Assembly (NCBI RefSeq): GCF_014635865.1
Contig: NZ_BMDQ01000001.1
Span: 186,001 to 250,000 of the forward strand
Direction: 5' to 3'
Length of the DNA stretch: 64,000 bases
From: Winogradskyella haliclonae
GTDB lineage: Bacteria; Bacteroidota; Bacteroidia; Flavobacteriales; Flavobacteriaceae
Shown: one piece after another, positions 15,214 through 22,535 of the stretch
Layout of the letters: each line of letters begins with the position of its first letter
Numbering within the stretch: position 1 is the stretch's first letter
The notes under the pieces: model-generated
Database searches by the model: none
What the model saw: only the letters and a program-made list of their open reading frames with translations
Told to the model about the DNA's origin: nothing
Program-made: the position numbers and the translations under genes

Positions 15214-16821
15214 TTAAGACTGAATTTGAAAAACTATTGGCAATGAATATGGCACAGTCACAGCTTCACCTGCATGTTCTCCAGGAATCATCTTTGGTAA
15301 CATATTAATAATTCTCTTTGCTTCTTCCTCAAGTTCTTCGTGAGGCGCTCTAGCTTTTACTTCAGTAATATCTCCTTCTTGATTTATCTTAAAAAATACA
15401 GATATACGTTGACGCCCTTCCAATTGAAGACTGGATGCTAACTTTATATTAAAGTTTTTATTTACAAACTTAGCAATAGCTTGTGAGGTGCATCTTTTCT
15501 TTTCTTTTTCATCACTTAGATTTGAACACTGAGCATATGTAGGGGCTTTATCTATTACAGCGTATGGCACTTCGGTTTTCCCGTCAAAACCTCTTGGGTC
15601 TATTTCCTCAATCTCTGTAACACGCTTTTTCTTTGATGCAAAGAAGTCAAAAGGACTTTTAACATTCATATACATTTTATAAGTATTACCGTCTTTATTA
15701 CCAACTTCTGTTTCAGTAAATTCTTCTGGCAACTTTTCATCTTTATGATGAACTGAGTAACTAATTTCATCTGATTCATGATTTATTTCTGCCCAACTCA
15801 CATAATCTTTATTGTTATATAGAAAGTTTTCATAATTATCATGAATTTTTTTTGTTTCGGCATCCATACGACTTTCTAAAGATAGCGTATAGCTATATTG
15901 CTCTAAATCTAATGTTTGTTCGGAATTAATTTCTGAGACCCCTTTCTCACATGATACATAAAGTAACATTGAAAAAATTACAGGAATTAAAAGTGAGTAC
16001 TTGATAAGTGCTATTTGTTTTGATTTTGACTGTCTTAACATATTTATTCGTTTTTTAATTAGTGATTTTTTATAAAATGTATTTGTAAAAGAGATATTAT
16101 TTGTTTCAAATACTTGATTTAGCAATTGCTGATAATAGTTCTTTTTTCCGTTTTGTCTTACAGCGGTTTCATCCGCAATATATTCGTGTAGTGCTCTAAT
16201 TCTGTTTTGATACATATAAACTAATGGATTAAACCAAAATGCAATTCGTATAATCTCAAATAACAATAAGTCTACACTATGCCATTGCTTTATATGAACT
16301 AACTCATGTTTAAGGATAGTAGGTTGTTCTTCTTCAGAAATTTTTTCGCCTAAAAAAACGGTATTGAAGAATGAAAATGCCGCATTACTTTGAAGCAACT
16401 TTACAATAAGTATGTCACCACTCCAACGCTTTGGATTGTTTGATTTTAACCAGTAAAGTTTTATAAACTTAAAAAGAAAAAGTAATGTCGCTAAAACCGC
16501 ACCTGAATAAAAAACAATTTGCCAAATAGGCATAGTAGGCTCATCTAAAACAACACCTGTTTGCAAAGCTATTTGAGTATCTAATTCTCTTGGCTGCTTA
16601 CTATTACCAATAATAACTTCTGGCAATACCACTACAAACTCTTCTGGAACTACTGCTTTTATAGTATCTAACTTTATAAAAGGAAGTACAAAAGAAAGTA
16701 TTGCTGTACCCAACAAATACATTCTGTTGTAATTAAAAAATGTTTCGCGTTTTAAAAACATATCGTAAACCAATAGAAATACAACCTGAAACGCTACTAC
16801 TTGTAATATATAATGTAACAT
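15214..16821 (-). CDS. BlaR1/MecR1-like M56 metallopeptidase with a C-terminal TonB-type domain
   Basis: 535 residues when started at 16821 (MLHYILQ). A longer frame from 16872 would overlap blaI by 50 bases and adds a non-conserved leader. Order: three N-terminal helices (about 5-120), the M56 zinc peptidase with H172-E-L-V-H176, another helix (about 285-305), a periplasmic linker, then a TonB-C-like domain at 425-535 with the C-x11-C pair. In staphylococci BlaR1 senses beta-lactams and inactivates BlaI; here the sensor is a TonB-type domain, not a penicillin-binding domain. The start lies 1 base after the blaI stop. The signal sensed is unknown. Confidence 0.88.
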   Translation of the reverse strand: MLHYILQVVAFQVVFLLVYDMFLKRETFFNYNRMYLLGTAILSFVLPFIKLDTIKAVVPEEFVVVLPEVIIGNSKQPRELDTQIALQTGVVLDEPTMPIWQIVFYSGAVLATLLFLFKFIKLYWLKSNNPKRWSGDILIVKLLQSNAAFSFFNTVFLGEKISEEEQPTILKHELVHIKQWHSVDLLLFEIIRIAFWFNPLVYMYQNRIRALHEYIADETAVRQNGKKNYYQQLLNQVFETNNISFTNTFYKKSLIKKRINMLRQSKSKQIALIKYSLLIPVIFSMLLYVSCEKGVSEINSEQTLDLEQYSYTLSLESRMDAETKKIHDNYENFLYNNKDYVSWAEINHESDEISYSVHHKDEKLPEEFTETEVGNKDGNTYKMYMNVKSPFDFFASKKKRVTEIEEIDPRGFDGKTEVPYAVIDKAPTYAQCSNLSDEKEKKRCTSQAIAKFVNKNFNIKLASSLQLEGRQRISVFFKINQEGDITEVKARAPHEELEEEAKRIINMLPKMIPGEHAGEAVTVPYSLPIVFQIQS

Positions 16822-16822
16822 A

Positions 16823-17182
16823 CTAATCGTGTTTATTGATATCTTTAAGCAATGCTTCAATATCTTGAACATCTACATCATTCTTCTTAACAAAAAACGA
16901 TACCATACTCTTAAATGATCCTTGAAAATAGTTGTCTACCAACTTGTTAATCGATTGATTACTATACAGTTCTTTATCAACAATAGGAAAATACACATGG
17001 CCTTTGCCTTGCTTTTCATAATCTACAAAACCTTTAGATTCTAAGATTCTAACAATTGTTGACACAGTGTTATATGCAGGCTTTGGCTCTGGTAAAAGAT
17101 CTATAATAGATTTTACATTGGCTTTTTTTAACTGCCAAAGAGTTTGCATAATTTCTTCCTCGGCTTTGGTAAGTTGTTTCAT
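16823..17182 (-). CDS. BlaI/MecI/CopY-family transcriptional repressor
   Basis: 119 residues, the standard length. An N-terminal winged helix (LTKAEEEIMQTLWQLKKA, then YNTVSTIVRILESKGFV) binds DNA and the C-terminal part dimerises. It precedes the M56 peptidase by 1 base, the usual repressor-sensor order. Two palindromic sites just upstream (17221-17254) fit autorepression that is relieved by proteolysis of the repressor. Confidence 0.92.
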   Translation of the reverse strand: MKQLTKAEEEIMQTLWQLKKANVKSIIDLLPEPKPAYNTVSTIVRILESKGFVDYEKQGKGHVYFPIVDKELYSNQSINKLVDNYFQGSFKSMVSFFVKKNDVDVQDIEALLKDINKHD

Positions 17183-17220
17183 TTTTAACTAAGCATTTGG
17201 TTGAATAACAGCGCTAATAT

Positions 17221-17254
17221 AACTAAAATTTTAGTTTCAACTAATTTTTTAGTT
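17221..17254. promoter_or_regulatory. Two BlaI-type operator palindromes upstream of blaI
   Basis: Positions 17221-17236 form a perfect 16-bp palindrome, AACTAAAATTTTAGTT. A second dyad, AACTAA-TTTT-TTAGTT, occupies 17239-17254 and has identical arms. Centres are 18 bp apart. Known BlaI/MecI operators are palindromes with CTA...TAG arms, so the match in arm sequence, tandem arrangement and position (39-72 bases before blaI) is good. Confidence 0.62.
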
Positions 17255-17312
17255 TAAAAAATGTAACTTTTAACATCTACTAGCGTCATATCTGTATATT
17301 TTTTACACGTAT

Positions 17313-17810
17313 ATGGAACTAATTATTATAACTGCCGGTTTACTTTTAATGGTTTTAGGATTAGTAGGAAGCTTTTTACCAGTTCTGCCAGGTCCGTTAA
17401 CTAGTTGGGCAGGTTTATTTGTACTTAGCTATGCTAATGGTATTGCAATAAGTAAGGCATTCTTAATCGTCACATTTATTGTGGCCTTACTCATATTTAT
17501 ACTCGACTATATTATACCTGCTGCTGGTACTAAACGATTTGGTGGTAGTAAATCTGGAATGATTGGTACAACTCTAGGTTTAATTATAGGTCTTTTATCG
17601 CCAATTCCTTTTGGTGTAATTATTGGGCCATTTGTTGGGGCACTTATTGGAGAGTTGATGCACAAGAATGATGTTAGTAGAGCTACAAAAGCTGCTTTTG
17701 GTTCTTTTCTAGGCTTTATAACTTCTACATTTCTAAAATTTATTGTTGCTGTAGTATACCTAGGGCTTTTTATCGTAAAAGTTGTAAACCACACAGGAAG
17801 TTGGGTTTAA
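17313..17810 (+). CDS. DUF456 membrane protein
   Basis: 165 residues with about four glycine-rich membrane helices. Family features are the N-terminal GLVGSFLPVLPGP segment and the tandem small-residue helices around IGTTLGLIIGLLSPIPFGVIIGPFVGALIGE. The function of DUF456 proteins is unknown. It stands alone, divergent from blaI, and is followed by a terminator. Confidence 0.85.
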   Translation: MELIIITAGLLLMVLGLVGSFLPVLPGPLTSWAGLFVLSYANGIAISKAFLIVTFIVALLIFILDYIIPAAGTKRFGGSKSGMIGTTLGLIIGLLSPIPFGVIIGPFVGALIGELMHKNDVSRATKAAFGSFLGFITSTFLKFIVAVVYLGLFIVKVVNHTGSWV

Positions 17811-17817
17811 TACAAAT

Positions 17818-17865
17818 AAAAAACCTGACAGAAGAACCATCGGTCGATTTCCTATCAGGTTTTTA
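17818..17865. terminator. Rho-independent terminator, bidirectional
   Basis: AAAAACCTGA (17819-17828) pairs with TCAGGTTTTT (17855-17864) around a 26-base loop. A and T runs on both sides allow use from either strand: DUF456 on plus, and possibly the end of the response regulator transcript on minus. Confidence 0.7.
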
Positions 17866-18046
17866 AGCTATTAATTCAACAATTGCTTAAGAGGGATTAA
17901 TTAATTCTTGTTGACCATACAAAGTTACTGAAGCGTTCTGTCTTTATGTTACGGAAAAACCGTAGACTTGATGCGGAAAAACCGTAGTTTTCAACATTGA
18001 CAGTAGCTGTGGAAATTTTTTAAGCTGTAAAAAAGTGCTATTTTTT

Positions 18047-18715
18047 TTAGATAAATCCTTTTTCTTTAGCCATTTCTAGCAAAGTTTCATCTTTTCCGTC
18101 TTCAACAGAAAACAATAACTTGAGTTGCTTTTTCCGTTTTTCAATAGCACTCATTGATAATGCAATATGGTCAAGCAAGCTTTTTGTTTTTATGCCTTGC
18201 GATAGTAGATACAGTATTTTTCTATTAATATCATCGACATATATTTCACTTGTAAGCGTCTGTTTTACATAATTGTGTACAGTACTACTGTAATATGGCG
18301 GTGATTTTATGATGTGCTGAAAAGCATCTGCTAATTCCATAGACGTTAAATCACTCTTAATCAAAAACCCGTCAGGATTAATCTCTCTAATAATATTATG
18401 TATTCTAAATGATTCATTAAACATGGTTAAAATAATAACCTTTGTTTCTGGCATCATCTTTTTAGCCAATTTTGCCAAATCTTCTCCTGAAGTATATCTT
18501 CCATCTTGAGATGGTGGTAAGCTAATGTCAAAAAAGCAGATGTCATAATGCACATCTTTTGCTGCTCTATTGATCATTATTTCTGCCATATCACAATTAT
18601 TAGCAGTATCAATTTCTAGATTCTGATTTTCGGCTTTTGTTGCCATTAAGACGTTCATGTATCCTTCTATAATAATAGGATGATCGTCTACCATTAAGAT
18701 TTTAAATTCTTGCAT
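18047..18715 (-). CDS. Response regulator, NarL/FixJ-like
   Basis: 222 residues. The receiver domain has acidic D10 and D11, phospho-acceptor D63 (CFFDISLP), the conserved Thr in IILTM and Lys in FLIKSD. The C-terminal half holds a LuxR-like helix-turn-helix (LLSQGIKTKSLLDHIALSMSAIEKRKKQL, about 165-200), somewhat degenerate. It is 20 bases downstream of a TPR sensor kinase with a HisKA_3 domain, the normal partner for this class. The target is unknown; the dyads upstream of the small exported peptide at 20883 are candidates. Confidence 0.9.
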   Translation of the reverse strand: MQEFKILMVDDHPIIIEGYMNVLMATKAENQNLEIDTANNCDMAEIMINRAAKDVHYDICFFDISLPPSQDGRYTSGEDLAKLAKKMMPETKVIILTMFNESFRIHNIIREINPDGFLIKSDLTSMELADAFQHIIKSPPYYSSTVHNYVKQTLTSEIYVDDINRKILYLLSQGIKTKSLLDHIALSMSAIEKRKKQLKLLFSVEDGKDETLLEMAKEKGFI

Positions 18716-18735
18716 CTTTAGTTTAGTAGGTTGAT

Positions 18736-20757
18736 TTAGACTGAATAGGGGATTTTTACTTTGACAGTGGTTCCATTTCCTGGTTCTGAAGAAAATGAAA
18801 TCTTACCTCCGATTTCTGAAACTCGAGAGGCCATATTTTTTAGACCGATACCTTTTTTAGATTTGGATGTATCAAAACCTTTACCGTCATCTACAATATA
18901 GATATTTATTTCATCTTTTTGTCTTAAAATATCAATTTTAACATGCTTAGCCTCAGCGTGTTTGTAGGTGTTTTGCATGGATTCTTGGATGATTCGATAG
19001 ATATTTATCTTCGTTTTATTGGGTACAAACTCCCAACTAAAATCATCTGTGTAATTAAAATCATAAGTAAAACCGTAGGCTTTAGTTTGGTTATCTATAA
19101 GTTCGGAGACAATATCCATAAACCCAGAACCCGCAACAAAATCGGTATTCATCTCATGAGATATTTTACGGATATCATCTTCTATGGTTTTAAGCTGGCC
19201 AATGTAATTAGCCCTGTTCATCATGGCCTCTTTCCCTTCGGAAAAATTGAGGCTATCTAAGCTTAATCTTGCGCCAAACAATCTGCCCAAAACACCATCA
19301 TGCAACTCTTTAGACACTCTAATCTTCTCTTGTGCTCTGGCTTCTTCTACATTGTCTTGCTGATTAAGCATAAGATTATAAATCTCTTCATTGGCCTCTT
19401 GTTGTGCTTGTACCAATTTTAGCTCTTTGTTTTTGGCACGTTGCGAAATAACCACATATACCAATATCCCCGTAAGTAAAAGCCCAGCAGATAATAATAG
19501 TAGGTAAAAATTGTCTCGAGATATTTGTTTGTTTTTAGCTTCGAGTTGGTCAGTTTCAAGTTCTATACGAGCGAATTTGTTTCTTTTGTTTCTTTCTACA
19601 TTTAATAAACTATCAGAAAGCTTAATATATTCTGTTAAATAGCTACTAGCTCTATCCTCTTTATCTAGTTCAGACAGTAGCAATAATGATTCTAATTTAA
19701 GTTCATTATTAGAAATAGCATCAGAAATTTTATAACTTCTGTCTGCATAATATAGAGCAGAATCAGATTCTTTTATATCCAAATAAAATCTTGACAAATC
19801 TATTGCAATACCTAGTTTAGTTAAAGGGTCAGCTATAGTATCACTCATGTTTTTTCCTAAATAGAATATATTCTTAATTTCATCTATATTTCTATCTAGT
19901 TTAAATGATTTAGTATAAGCAAGATTCCCTAATGTAATTGCATAAAAAGAAGAGTCGTAGTAATTTAAACTGTCTTCTGAAATAACTTGCTCATACAATT
20001 CAATAGATTTATCTATTTCTTCTTTATGTCTGTAAGCAATAGCTTTATTATTGATAGAATATAAATTATTATAATAACCATATTCCATTTTCTTAGCAAT
20101 CTTTTGTGCCTTGTTATGGTATTCTATGGCTTTATCATAGTTTTTGAGCTTTAACGATATAATACCTATTAAGTTATTAAGTATCCATAGGCGCTCTCTA
20201 GCATTTTCATCTATCTCAGTAGAGTTTAATAGACGAATAGCTTCTACAGCATTCTCTTCAGCCCCTATGTAATCTTTCTCAGTTTCTTGAATGTCAGCTA
20301 TGTTAAGTAAAGTTCTAGCTTTACCATCAATATTTCTAGACTTATCAAATAACTTAAGTGCTTTAGAGTAATAATAGAACGCACTATCGTTTTGTTCTTT
20401 ACTATGAAAAAATGCTCCTAAATTAGAATTAACTATTTCTAATGACGATGAGTCTTTAATTTTATTAGCTAAACTTAGATTTTGGTAATTAATTCTTAAA
20501 TATAAACTATCTTTTCCGCCATTATAATAAGCAAGAGATAATATTCTTCCACTTTTTAATATTACTGAATCTTGATTTAATTCATAAGAAAGTTTTATTG
20601 CCTCTTCAGCAAATTTAATTTGCTCGTCAAACGAAATATTACTATTCTGAGATAATTTTCTTAATTTAAGTATACTATCATAGGATGATTTACTTTGTGA
20701 AGAAATTACATTAAAATATATTAATAGAAAAAAGAGTAAGCAAAATTTTAAATTCAA
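18736..20757 (-). CDS. TPR-containing sensor histidine kinase (HisKA_3)
   Basis: 673 residues. A signal sequence (MNLKFCLLFFLLIYFNVISSQ) is followed by a periplasmic TPR array (about 30-390), one membrane helix (about 412-432, LLLLSAGLLLTGILVYVVI), a short coiled coil, a HisKA_3 dimerisation domain with the phospho-acceptor H486 (ELHDGV), and a HATPase_c domain with QESMQN, DDGKGF and GIGLKNM. TPR sensors of this design are frequent in Bacteroidetes and their ligands are mostly unknown. Gene order is exported 57-residue peptide, kinase, response regulator, all on the minus strand. Confidence 0.92.
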   Translation of the reverse strand: MNLKFCLLFFLLIYFNVISSQSKSSYDSILKLRKLSQNSNISFDEQIKFAEEAIKLSYELNQDSVILKSGRILSLAYYNGGKDSLYLRINYQNLSLANKIKDSSSLEIVNSNLGAFFHSKEQNDSAFYYYSKALKLFDKSRNIDGKARTLLNIADIQETEKDYIGAEENAVEAIRLLNSTEIDENARERLWILNNLIGIISLKLKNYDKAIEYHNKAQKIAKKMEYGYYNNLYSINNKAIAYRHKEEIDKSIELYEQVISEDSLNYYDSSFYAITLGNLAYTKSFKLDRNIDEIKNIFYLGKNMSDTIADPLTKLGIAIDLSRFYLDIKESDSALYYADRSYKISDAISNNELKLESLLLLSELDKEDRASSYLTEYIKLSDSLLNVERNKRNKFARIELETDQLEAKNKQISRDNFYLLLLSAGLLLTGILVYVVISQRAKNKELKLVQAQQEANEEIYNLMLNQQDNVEEARAQEKIRVSKELHDGVLGRLFGARLSLDSLNFSEGKEAMMNRANYIGQLKTIEDDIRKISHEMNTDFVAGSGFMDIVSELIDNQTKAYGFTYDFNYTDDFSWEFVPNKTKINIYRIIQESMQNTYKHAEAKHVKIDILRQKDEINIYIVDDGKGFDTSKSKKGIGLKNMASRVSEIGGKISFSSEPGNGTTVKVKIPYSV

Positions 20758-20867
20758 AATTTTAAACTAATTTAATAATCTCAAATTTAGAATAATTTTA
20801 TTTAACTGTTACAAATTAAGCCCTTATGTATATTATAAGAGCTAAAATATGATATTAAGGAATTAAT

Positions 20868-20897
20868 TTATCCTTGTTGTTTTTATCCTTGTTGTTC
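20868..20897. repeat. 15-bp tandem duplication spanning the stop of the small exported peptide
   Basis: The unit TTATCCTTGTTGTTT/C occurs at 20868-20882 and 20883-20897, differing only in the last base. On the minus strand it encodes the last residues QQG and the stop codon, so the stop is duplicated in frame 15 bases downstream. Confidence 0.85.
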
Positions 20898-21056
20898 TAC
20901 TTGTCTCTTCTTTTTATTCAGAACTAATAAATCATAATTTGAATTGTCCTTCTTATATGTAATTTTCTCTTCCTGAGCAACAGCATCTTTTGAAACTACA
21001 GATACAGTAAGTACTACAACAGCAACTAATAATAAGGTAATTTTTAAAGTTTTCAT
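20883..21056 (-). CDS. 57-residue exported peptide upstream of the TPR kinase
   Basis: A frame of 57 codons reads M-K-T-L-K-I-T, then a long hydrophobic signal segment, then AVAQ-EEK, an apparent signal peptidase site near residues 27-28. The mature part would be about 30 residues, highly charged, with a KKKR cluster close to the end and QQG at the C-terminus. The gene lies 125 bases before the kinase on the same strand. Small exported peptides next to periplasmic TPR sensors could be ligands or regulators; that is inference. Support comes from the textbook signal-peptide architecture rather than from homology. Confidence 0.6.
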   Translation of the reverse strand: MKTLKITLLLVAVVVLTVSVVSKDAVAQEEKITYKKDNSNYDLLVLNKKKRQVEQQG

Positions 21057-21359
21057 AAGTATTCTTTTTAGTTTAATATTGGTCTTTTTTTAATGGTGCC
21101 TTAAACTTATAAGACACAGTCATGTTTGGGTTATTTTCCAAACAACCGTACTAAAAAGAATTCATCTAACAGAACTGTTAGAGTGTCAATGGATTAATAA
21201 AATTTCTTGAATAAGTGATTTAGGGCCTTACTTAAGAACCTGCAAGCTAAAGAAAACCTAATGGCAAAACCTCTTTTATTCGATTAAATGCGTATTTTTA
21301 TCGATTAAATGCGTATTTTTAATGAATAATCACTCAAAAAACTTAAAAAATTGCAATTA
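21057..21359. other. 303-bp intergenic region with two dyads and a tandem repeat
   Basis: No gene is visible between the FG-GAP protein and the small exported peptide. The region holds an inverted repeat, TGTTTGG/CCAAACA (21123-21144), an 18-base dyad with perfect 8-bp arms around AA (21165-21182, TCTAACAG/CTGTTAGA), and a perfect 21-bp tandem duplication (21280-21321). The dyads are 67-126 bases upstream of the peptide start and could be operators, for instance for the adjacent response regulator. No convincing TAnnTTTG promoter was found for the peptide. Confidence 0.5.
21280..21321. repeat. Perfect 21-bp tandem duplication
   Basis: The unit TCGATTAAATGCGTATTTTTA is present twice without mismatch (21280-21300, 21301-21321). 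It lies 39 bases past the end of the FG-GAP gene's coding region, between it and the exported-peptide gene. Confidence 0.9.
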
Positions 21360-22535
21360 TTATTGGCCTAATAATAACTTATCCGGACCTCGAAAACAAG
21401 CCAAATAGATGTCTGGTTTTCCATCTTTATTAAAATCGGCGACTTCAATATCTACAATAATAGTATTAATAGGCTGCTGAAGAAATGTGTTTGTTCGCTC
21501 TTCAAAAACGCCTTTGCCATTATTTATGCCTATAGAAAATCCATCTAGTTTACCAAGTAATAAATCTTGGTCGCCATCATTATCTATATCATAAAAATCA
21601 GCATCTAATAAGCCGCTGATAGCATTAAATTTTAATTGCTCAGCGCCTTTATCCGTATATTTTCCGTTCTCATTAATAAGTAAGCGTTGTATCGGGCTCT
21701 TTTTTGTAAACATCATAACATTTGCAAAATAAATATCTAAATCGCCATCATTATCTATGTCTGCAAAATCAGCTTCCCGAGTTTCTTCAGAAATACCACT
21801 CTTAAAAAGTTGTTCGGTGACATCAGTAAAAACACCTTTACCATTATTTTGCAACAATCGATTATCATCCTCATTACCAACTAATACATCCAAATCACCA
21901 TCATTATCATAATCTCCGACTTCAACATCTTGAGTGACATCAAAGATAATAGGCAATCTTTTATTAGTGTCATCCACTAAAACACCTTTGTTATTTTTTA
22001 GATAATTATTCTGACCATTATTACCAACAATAAAATCTACCCAACCGTCGCTATCAAAATCGCCTTTAATCAAAGCATTTGATACATTAGCGACGGGAAA
22101 TTGATCTGAAACATCTTTAAATGTGCCATTCTTTTGTTGGAGGTAGAGTTCGTTGGTTTTATCATCTTCAGTAACGAAAAGCATATCTAACAACCCATCT
22201 TTATCAATGTCTTCTAGCGTCACATCTTCGGAATCGTGATACGGATAGTATTGATAAGGTTTTGTATTTGCTACTGCAATTTTATCTGGAAGCCTACTTG
22301 AACCATCTTTGAAGTTGCCCTCACCGTCATTCAACAAAATGATATTTTTATAAAACTCTACAGCAATAACAATATCAAGATCGCCATCAGTATCTATATC
22401 TGCTATGCTAGCATCCATAGAATTATAGGGTTTTTTAGCTATTTCTGGCAAATGTGTCGATGATACTTCTCTTAATGATTGTCCACTGATATTAAGACAA
22501 TAGATTCCGGTTATAAAAACTATTAGCTGCTTCAT
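21360..22535 (-). CDS. Secreted FG-GAP/VCBS-repeat protein
   Basis: 391 residues with a signal peptide (MKQLIVFITGIYCLNISGQ). Seven calcium-loop motifs of the type D-x-D-x-D-G-x-x-D are visible (for example DIDTDGDLDI, DYDNDGDLDV, DFNKDGKPDI), spaced as in a seven-bladed integrin-like propeller. Each blade has a partner segment such as LLLNDGEGNF. No T9SS C-terminal sorting domain or lipobox is present, so it is probably periplasmic or freely secreted. It stands alone; function unknown, with such propellers often binding carbohydrate or protein. Confidence 0.87.
   Translation of the reverse strand: MKQLIVFITGIYCLNISGQSLREVSSTHLPEIAKKPYNSMDASIADIDTDGDLDIVIAVEFYKNIILLNDGEGNFKDGSSRLPDKIAVANTKPYQYYPYHDSEDVTLEDIDKDGLLDMLFVTEDDKTNELYLQQKNGTFKDVSDQFPVANVSNALIKGDFDSDGWVDFIVGNNGQNNYLKNNKGVLVDDTNKRLPIIFDVTQDVEVGDYDNDGDLDVLVGNEDDNRLLQNNGKGVFTDVTEQLFKSGISEETREADFADIDNDGDLDIYFANVMMFTKKSPIQRLLINENGKYTDKGAEQLKFNAISGLLDADFYDIDNDGDQDLLLGKLDGFSIGINNGKGVFEERTNTFLQQPINTIIVDIEVADFNKDGKPDIYLACFRGPDKLLLGQ

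Follow-up and report, generated by a model that had tools for sequence, protein, structure and literature searches.

We examined a 64,000-nucleotide stretch of the Winogradskyella haliclonae genome (contig NZ_BMDQ01000001.1, positions 186,001 to 250,000; here called the window) that carries on its minus strand, in this order, a 5' leader, a 57-residue frame encoding a small exported peptide, a sensor histidine kinase with a tetratricopeptide repeat (TPR) sensor, a response regulator, two direct repeats, and a candidate small RNA (sRNA) gene (Table 1). The kinase begins 125 bp past the peptide frame, and the regulator lies 20 bp past the kinase. The first-pass annotation of the window had proposed the peptide, kinase, and regulator as a candidate peptide-signalling module, and this proposal is supported by conservation, gene linkage, codon usage changes between close pairs, duplication of the peptide gene in tandem, and the coupled diversification and exchange of the mature peptide with the sensor. 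Its list of parts was right but incomplete: it omitted the conserved 5' leader as well as the repeats and the sRNA gene (17818-17986). We consider it likely that the module is a peptide-receptor two-component relay with private specificities whose output passes through the sRNA.

Table 1. Features of the peptide-kinase-regulator-sRNA module (positions in the window)
Feature	Position	Strand	Description and basis
5' leader of peptide gene	21057-21246	-	Conserved; divergent version in the window's lineage
Peptide precursor	20883-21056	-	Small exported, 57 aa; ORF (open reading frame) and translation, homologues, codon pattern of close pairs
Signal peptide	20988-21056	-	Residues 1-23, predicted cleavage site; MKxLKIT core conserved
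Mature peptide	20886-20987	-	Starts DAVAQEE; remainder class-specific
TPR sensor histidine kinase	18736-20757	-	673 aa, TTG start
Periplasmic TPR sensor, exchangeable	19582-20694	-	About residues 22-392 of the kinase; AlphaFold2 model, identity drop, mosaic breakpoint at its end
Linker, transmembrane segment, and DesK/VraS-type kinase core	18736-19581	-	Conserved
Response regulator	18047-18715	-	222 aa, receiver domain
Two direct repeats TACGGTTTTTCCGYA	17950-17986	-	22-bp period; putative regulator sites
Candidate sRNA	17818-17916	-	~100 nt; 5' hairpin with UUAAUUAAUCCCUC in the loop, then intrinsic terminator

Judged from comparisons with its homologues, the 57-residue frame is a real gene that is under protein-level selection among close relatives. 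The open reading frame and its translation confirm the annotated arrangement of a frame with a signal peptide ahead of a TPR kinase and regulator on one strand, as does gene order across the genus: peptide homologues were found in 37 of 37 same-genus (Winogradskyella) genomes (E≤0.0031), and in all 37 a TPR kinase lies 73 to 184 bp past the peptide and is followed by the regulator. The window and genome G023 differ by 8 synonymous changes over 37.5 sites and 7 nonsynonymous changes over 133.5 sites, a ratio of nonsynonymous to synonymous change per site (pN/pS) of 0.25, and the remaining near pairs range from 0 to about 0.4. A lack of conservation or of a codon-like substitution pattern had been named at the outset as grounds for discarding the frame, and on the close pairs the frame withstands this check. 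A chance reading frame or non-coding leader was rejected on the basis of the close-pair codon pattern, C-terminal motifs, and tandem copies. When 66 control ORFs were inspected, a small exported-looking frame was present within 420 bp upstream of 7, and 2 of those 7 were the module's own kinases. No Pfam or NCBIfam family covers the small peptide. Its best-conserved segment in the alignment of same-genus homologues is the signal peptide (MKTLKITLALVAVLLLTVSGVQS-like), and the mature part combines a stretch of variable sequence with a C-terminal motif, for example YDLLAHxKxKxKxPTQG. Tandem peptide genes with similar mature parts were found in several genomes, with six copies in G021 (period 207), five each in L096, L097, and L099, and four in L098, and the L273 precursor carries the C-terminal unit GGGVDERD three times.

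The strongest evidence tying the peptide to its neighbouring kinase is a mosaic pattern of divergence, which is by analogy the pherotype pattern of ComX and ComP: from the sequences, the mature peptide and the sensor appear to have been exchanged between lineages as a matched pair. Mean identity within the genus is 40% for the sensor, 78% for the rest of the kinase, and 84% for the regulator. Locus L033 shares 94% identity with the window in the kinase core and 99% in the regulator, and 36% in the sensor; against L032 and L035 the sensor identities are 80% and 79%, and those of the core 75% and 77%. Compared with L033 in 90-base segments, the leader, signal peptide, core, and regulator of the window are 79 to 99% identical (mostly about 90%), and from the mature peptide through the end of the sensor each segment is 38 to 70% identical, with a renewed rise at the NKFARIE motif. 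Most of the mature peptide resembles those of L032 and L035 (SNYDLLVLNKKKRQVEQQG; SNFDLLAVNKKKKDIKQQG; SNFDVLAINKKKRAVEQQA). The signal peptide and the residues that follow it resemble L033 (DAVAQEE in the window, DAVVQEE in L033), which places a first breakpoint at about residue 30; a second falls at the end of the sensor.

Phylogenetic comparisons were consistent with this mosaic. Quick trees were built from 35 rows under LG+G4, with L046 (peptide identical to that of L045) and L055 (many unknown kinase residues) dropped here and from the Mantel tests. The sensor tree placed the window with L031, L032, and L035 (Shimodaira-Hasegawa approximate likelihood ratio support of 100). In approximately unbiased tests the sensor data rejected the core/regulator clade (p=3.5e-8) and the core-plus-regulator data rejected the sensor clade (p=8e-5), p values that are descriptive because the clades were chosen after the identity comparison. 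We also clustered the mature C-termini independently of the kinases (k=5, two of the classes being single sequences; 200 shuffles) and mapped the classes onto both trees. On the sensor tree they required 4 changes, the minimum for five classes (shuffled mean 16.2, minimum 12), versus 14 on the core-plus-regulator tree (shuffled mean 16.3, minimum 12); with eight classes the counts were 9 and 19, respectively. Signal-peptide classes required 7 changes on the sensor tree and 5 on the core-plus-regulator tree (shuffled minimum 7 on both). A partial Mantel test of mature part against sensor, given core and regulator, gave r=0.35 (P=0.0005, n=35), and the signal-sensor counterpart gave r=-0.01 (P=0.58, n=35).

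The gene set extends well beyond the genus. Because loci should not be picked by their peptide, the wider survey was queried by regulator in 149 genomes, one per genus, and a full-length regulator orthologue (identity of at least 54%) was found in 56 of the 149 genera; this cut is our own choice, and below it the scores carry on with no large gap (242.5, then 230.1 bits). A small exported frame precedes the kinase in 55 of these 56 genera, by the lenient criterion that was also applied to the control ORFs; the count includes L112, in which the distance from peptide to kinase is 442 bp. Half of the loci (28 of 56) were already in hand, mostly first fetched via a peptide or sRNA match, and all 28 have the frame; so do 27 of the 28 fetched by regulator position alone, the exception (L297) being cut off by the end of its contig close to the expected position of the frame. 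A lipobox, counted by eye, is present in 30 of the 55 products, comprising 4 of the 28 loci in hand and 26 of the 27 regulator-fetched ones. The charged, KKKR-containing mature part emphasized in the first-pass annotation does not define the family; a lysine cluster occurs in some peptide classes. The lipobox forms are acidic, often reading TSC and then KQDLNEDD, with an end such as FTGGGVDE. Outside the 56, genome G074 (regulator 57%, contig end) has a small lipobox frame at its locus L220, and five of the 33 loci fetched by regulator (L301 to L305) have regulators of 46 to 49% identity. Searching by the peptide itself gave no convincing match in 23 genomes that belong to the same order but to other families (best E 0.023); peptide-profile matches in 171 family genomes (E≤0.1) included many spurious ones in long frames, and that count was not used.

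Several further observations concern small frames near such kinases. Acidic small lipoprotein frames lie upstream of the kinase in L301, L302, and L304 (L303 and L305 were not parsed), and a single kinase in each of L285 and L296 is preceded by two different small exported frames, perhaps two ligands or a decaying copy. The window's genome also encodes a second, shorter TPR kinase (G000:C1:1413830-1415515, locus L259) with a lipoprotein gene of 53 aa upstream, and in 6 of 14 loci (L259 to L262, L264, and L268) a small lipoprotein gene with a proline-rich end lies 24 to 27 bp upstream of the shorter TPR kinase. A small exported (lipo)protein paired with a TPR kinase may be a general theme.

The kinase matches Pfam TPR_12 and HATPase_c, and structure searches match its core to DesK and VraS. 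The regulator matches Response_reg above the cut-off and resembles the MctR, RcsB, and NarL models below theirs; the GerE cut-off was not reached. The dimerization and histidine phosphotransfer (DHp) plus HATPase core and adjacent receiver regulator of a two-component system are thus present, with HisKA_3 at E=0.009, below the Pfam cut-off. Among 12 named loci with related kinases, 11 are from Winogradskyella and one is from Gelidibacter. As read from the sequence, the TPR part is flanked by a hydrophobic, signal-like stretch at the N terminus and by a predicted transmembrane helix on its other side. An AlphaFold2 model built on a 13-row alignment predicts a confident TPR superhelix for the sensor (block predicted local distance difference test [pLDDT] values of 83 to 98 over residues 31 to 380); the membrane helix comes next, and the linker is modelled poorly. 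The closest folds to the sensor model are LGN in complexes with partner proteins (Z 28.9) and the pheromone receptors RapI (26.1), NprR (24.9), and Rap with competence and sporulation factor (23.8).

Downstream of the regulator, the repeat pair TACGGTTTTTCCGYA is the sole such pair in the window's genome with up to 3 mismatches. The pair was found in 40 of the 41 same-genus genomes examined, with a single copy in 38 and two copies in the other two, and a reversed control pattern had one match across all 41; near-uniqueness per genome suggests that the regulator is devoted essentially to a single target. The second TACGG repeat pairs, in L306 (G021:C1) and L307 (G011:C32), are by eye without the sRNA core and are possible extra regulator targets. 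In an alignment of 36 same-genus sRNA sequences the 5' hairpin, with UUAAUUAAUCCCU in its loop, is nearly invariant and hence without covariation support, and the terminator shows both-side changes in 7 pairs, i.e., covariation in relatives. A covariance model under strict settings found the sRNA in 35 of 299 family genomes, and at E≤0.1 it matched in 47 of the 56 module loci, each time 79 to 170 nt past the regulator. No Rfam family scored above threshold for the sRNA (window positions 17200 to 21500, 6 Winogradskyella loci, and 18 other-genus loci). The sRNA occurs in tandem in L191 (G168; three copies) and L192 (G350; two copies, with no kinase in the stretch fetched).

A structured leader was also considered and set aside, as covariation supports no more than a single stem in an alignment of 31 of the 37 rows (L000, L031, L033, L034, L036, and L046 left out). 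The peptide leader is preceded on its 5' side by a tRNA gene in 4 of 6 relatives scanned (L032, L056, L058, and L061), with a Flavo-1 RNA (RF01705) further upstream in L032 and L056. By Pfam, the module's neighbours in the window are an FG-GAP protein and a DUF456 protein; the DUF456 gene (17313-17810, plus strand) is oriented toward the sRNA end. Beside the module, at 15214-17182, are a penicillinase-repressor (BlaI-like) gene and an M56 peptidase gene with a TonB_C domain.

The proposed relay builds on conservation, gene order, the genus-wide near-uniqueness of the repeats, and the coupled diversification and exchange of peptide and sensor, all of which the comparisons show. We infer peptide binding, the sign of the response, contact between regulator and repeats, transcription and function of the sRNA, and action between cells or within a single envelope. 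The small protein would be exported by Sec, as a soluble product in Winogradskyella and nearer relatives and, in roughly half of the genera, as a very small lipoprotein. The mature part would be the cognate, specificity-bearing ligand bound in the periplasm by the TPR superhelix of the neighbouring kinase, and binding would alter kinase or phosphatase activity and hence phosphorylation of the regulator. The regulator would then act on the repeats ahead of a single sRNA gene, which would be its principal or sole direct output, and the sRNA would adjust translation or stability of mRNAs. We slightly prefer action of the peptide between cells, as a pheromone, over action within a single envelope, because exchangeable specificity groups favour the former.

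A number of results weigh against this interpretation. Distant peptide pairs have pN/pS ratios of 0.5 to 1.2 (about 1), which we attribute to fast divergence of the mature part together with saturation of synonymous sites. With the sensor accounted for, the mature part still correlates with the core (r=0.27) and the regulator (r=0.24); a wider 53-row set also shows a weak correlation between signal peptide and sensor (r=0.15, P=0.018). The mature peptide and the sensor form a contiguous block that linkage alone could hold together. TPR superhelices are widespread, and the fold matches therefore indicate compatibility only. Prediction of a peptide-TPR complex, suggested by the first-pass annotation and run here on a linker-joined chain of mature peptide and sensor, was uninformative, with peptide pLDDT below 50 and no confident docking. 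The sRNA model finds no match at E≤0.1 in 9 of the 56 module loci. Feedback through pairing of the sRNA with the leader was rejected, since pairing was no better than with a block-shuffled leader (mean z +0.48; the shuffle moved bases two at a time and was not an exact dinucleotide shuffle). A single shared target of the sRNA loop was likewise rejected: in a scan of 31 genomes, the exact complements among the matches listed were at the sRNA locus only, and the remaining listed complements each carry a mismatch. Finally, none of the module's genes looked like an exporter, and this, together with the lipoprotein form, disfavours intercellular action.

These last two points are also what would be expected if the module instead monitored its own envelope, with a non-diffusible (lipo)protein partner reporting on export, lipoprotein sorting, or proteolysis and the divergence reflecting coevolution of the partners. 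The lipobox forms would remain anchored in the membrane, no exporter is seen in the operon, and the unusual conservation of the signal peptide would suit such a reporter. We nevertheless regard self-monitoring as unlikely, if deserving of serious consideration, since soluble peptides have no anchor and since tandem amplification and the exchange of diverged mature-peptide/sensor cassettes within conserved flanks are, in our judgement, unusual for an internal reporter. Class diversity and tandem copies, along with the basic C-terminal part in Winogradskyella, could also describe a bacteriocin-like effector peptide for which the kinase acts as a self-sensing or immunity regulator. That prospect seems remote to us given the acidic lipoprotein forms, an sRNA as the conserved downstream neighbour, and a module in which no immunity, transporter, or modification gene was seen.

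We give equally little credence to the idea that linkage and a recombination hotspot made the mosaic and that the peptide is functionally unrelated to the sensor. It accounts for the contiguity of the exchanged block (mature part, intergenic gap, and sensor) but fails to explain why divergence is concentrated in and confined to that block, with breakpoints near functional borders; members of deep sensor clades, moreover, have peptide motifs in common, and in 55 of the 56 genera with a regulator orthologue the kinase has retained a small exported frame ahead of it. The frame does follow a conserved 5' region in which one stem covaries, as a leader or attenuator ORF with an irrelevant product might, but the purifying codon pattern in close pairs, the conserved C-terminal motifs, and the tandem copying of whole genes make this reading extremely improbable.

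Under the peptide-receptor relay that we prefer, signalling specificity would reside in an easily overlooked small gene, within a system whose regulator is represented by orthologues in over a third of the sampled genera (56 of 149). The recurrence of this gene set, usually with one sRNA gene, across Flavobacteriaceae points to an unrecognised mode of signalling. We advance more tentatively, at somewhat below an even chance, a Flavobacteriaceae-wide peptide pheromone system in which exported or lipidated peptides in exchangeable specificity groups, TPR kinases, and one dedicated sRNA would serve the recognition of own kind. The Flavobacteriaceae are rich in marine polymer degraders, and synthetic peptides and an sRNA reporter would allow kin or quorum signalling in Flavobacteriia to be tested directly. 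Communication by peptides is well established for Firmicutes; we know of no earlier peptide pheromone system in Bacteroidota. Among the matches listed in open-access full texts (most subscription papers and bioRxiv fall outside), no account of a peptide-TPR-kinase-sRNA system in Bacteroidota was found.

Parts of the module have counterparts in well-described systems. Two-component regulators with an sRNA output are familiar from the GacA-Rsm and Qrr-type relays, which share that output with the module and differ from it in sensor, sRNA, and binding sites. LGN/Pins, the best fold match, is a eukaryotic scaffold whose solved structures contain segments of partner proteins, and the match implies no homology in signalling. 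The RRNPP(A) receptors (Rap, NprR, PlcR, PrgX, and Rgg) have a TPR superhelix of like size, and their small exported peptides are encoded beside the receptor and used as short re-imported forms. These receptors are cytoplasmic, as described in excerpts of PMC9765709, whereas the TPR part of the module is predicted to be periplasmic and fused to a kinase. TPR-like periplasmic sensors are discussed for beta-lactam sensing in the case of VbrK/VxrA of Vibrio (PMC8534201, available passages). A two-component system described for Riemerella (PMC5399024, in part) is a BaeS/OmpR-type pair and not this module. For the sRNA, a possible pointer by analogy is Rfp18 of Flavobacterium psychrophilum, deletion of which lowers two metalloprotease mRNAs in stationary phase (excerpts of PMC9723704). 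Both are flavobacterial sRNAs, compared here by description; Rfp18 is described in the same excerpts with a third stem-loop, whereas the module's sRNA has two.

The module appears to work like the ComQXPA quorum-sensing system of Bacillus, also treated in PMC4408185. The module differs in lacking a ComQ-like isoprenyl transferase gene beside the peptide gene (by Pfam, in the window), and, unlike ComX with its Trp near the C terminus, none of the peptides of the 37 same-genus loci contains Trp. It also has a periplasmic TPR sensor where the Com kinase has a multi-membrane domain, and combines a Sec signal peptide or lipobox and a Gram-negative host with an sRNA gene as the associated target. 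The two systems are alike in joining a small precursor, a membrane kinase with a HisKA_3-type core, and a receiver regulator in adjacent genes on one strand. The ComX precursor has 52 to 73 aa, and variability is concentrated at the ComX C terminus and the N-terminal domain of ComP (PMC4008528, in the excerpts available). In both systems, a highly variable peptide and sensor are set against a conserved core and regulator, with the peptides and sensors falling into specificity groups, those of the module being putative.

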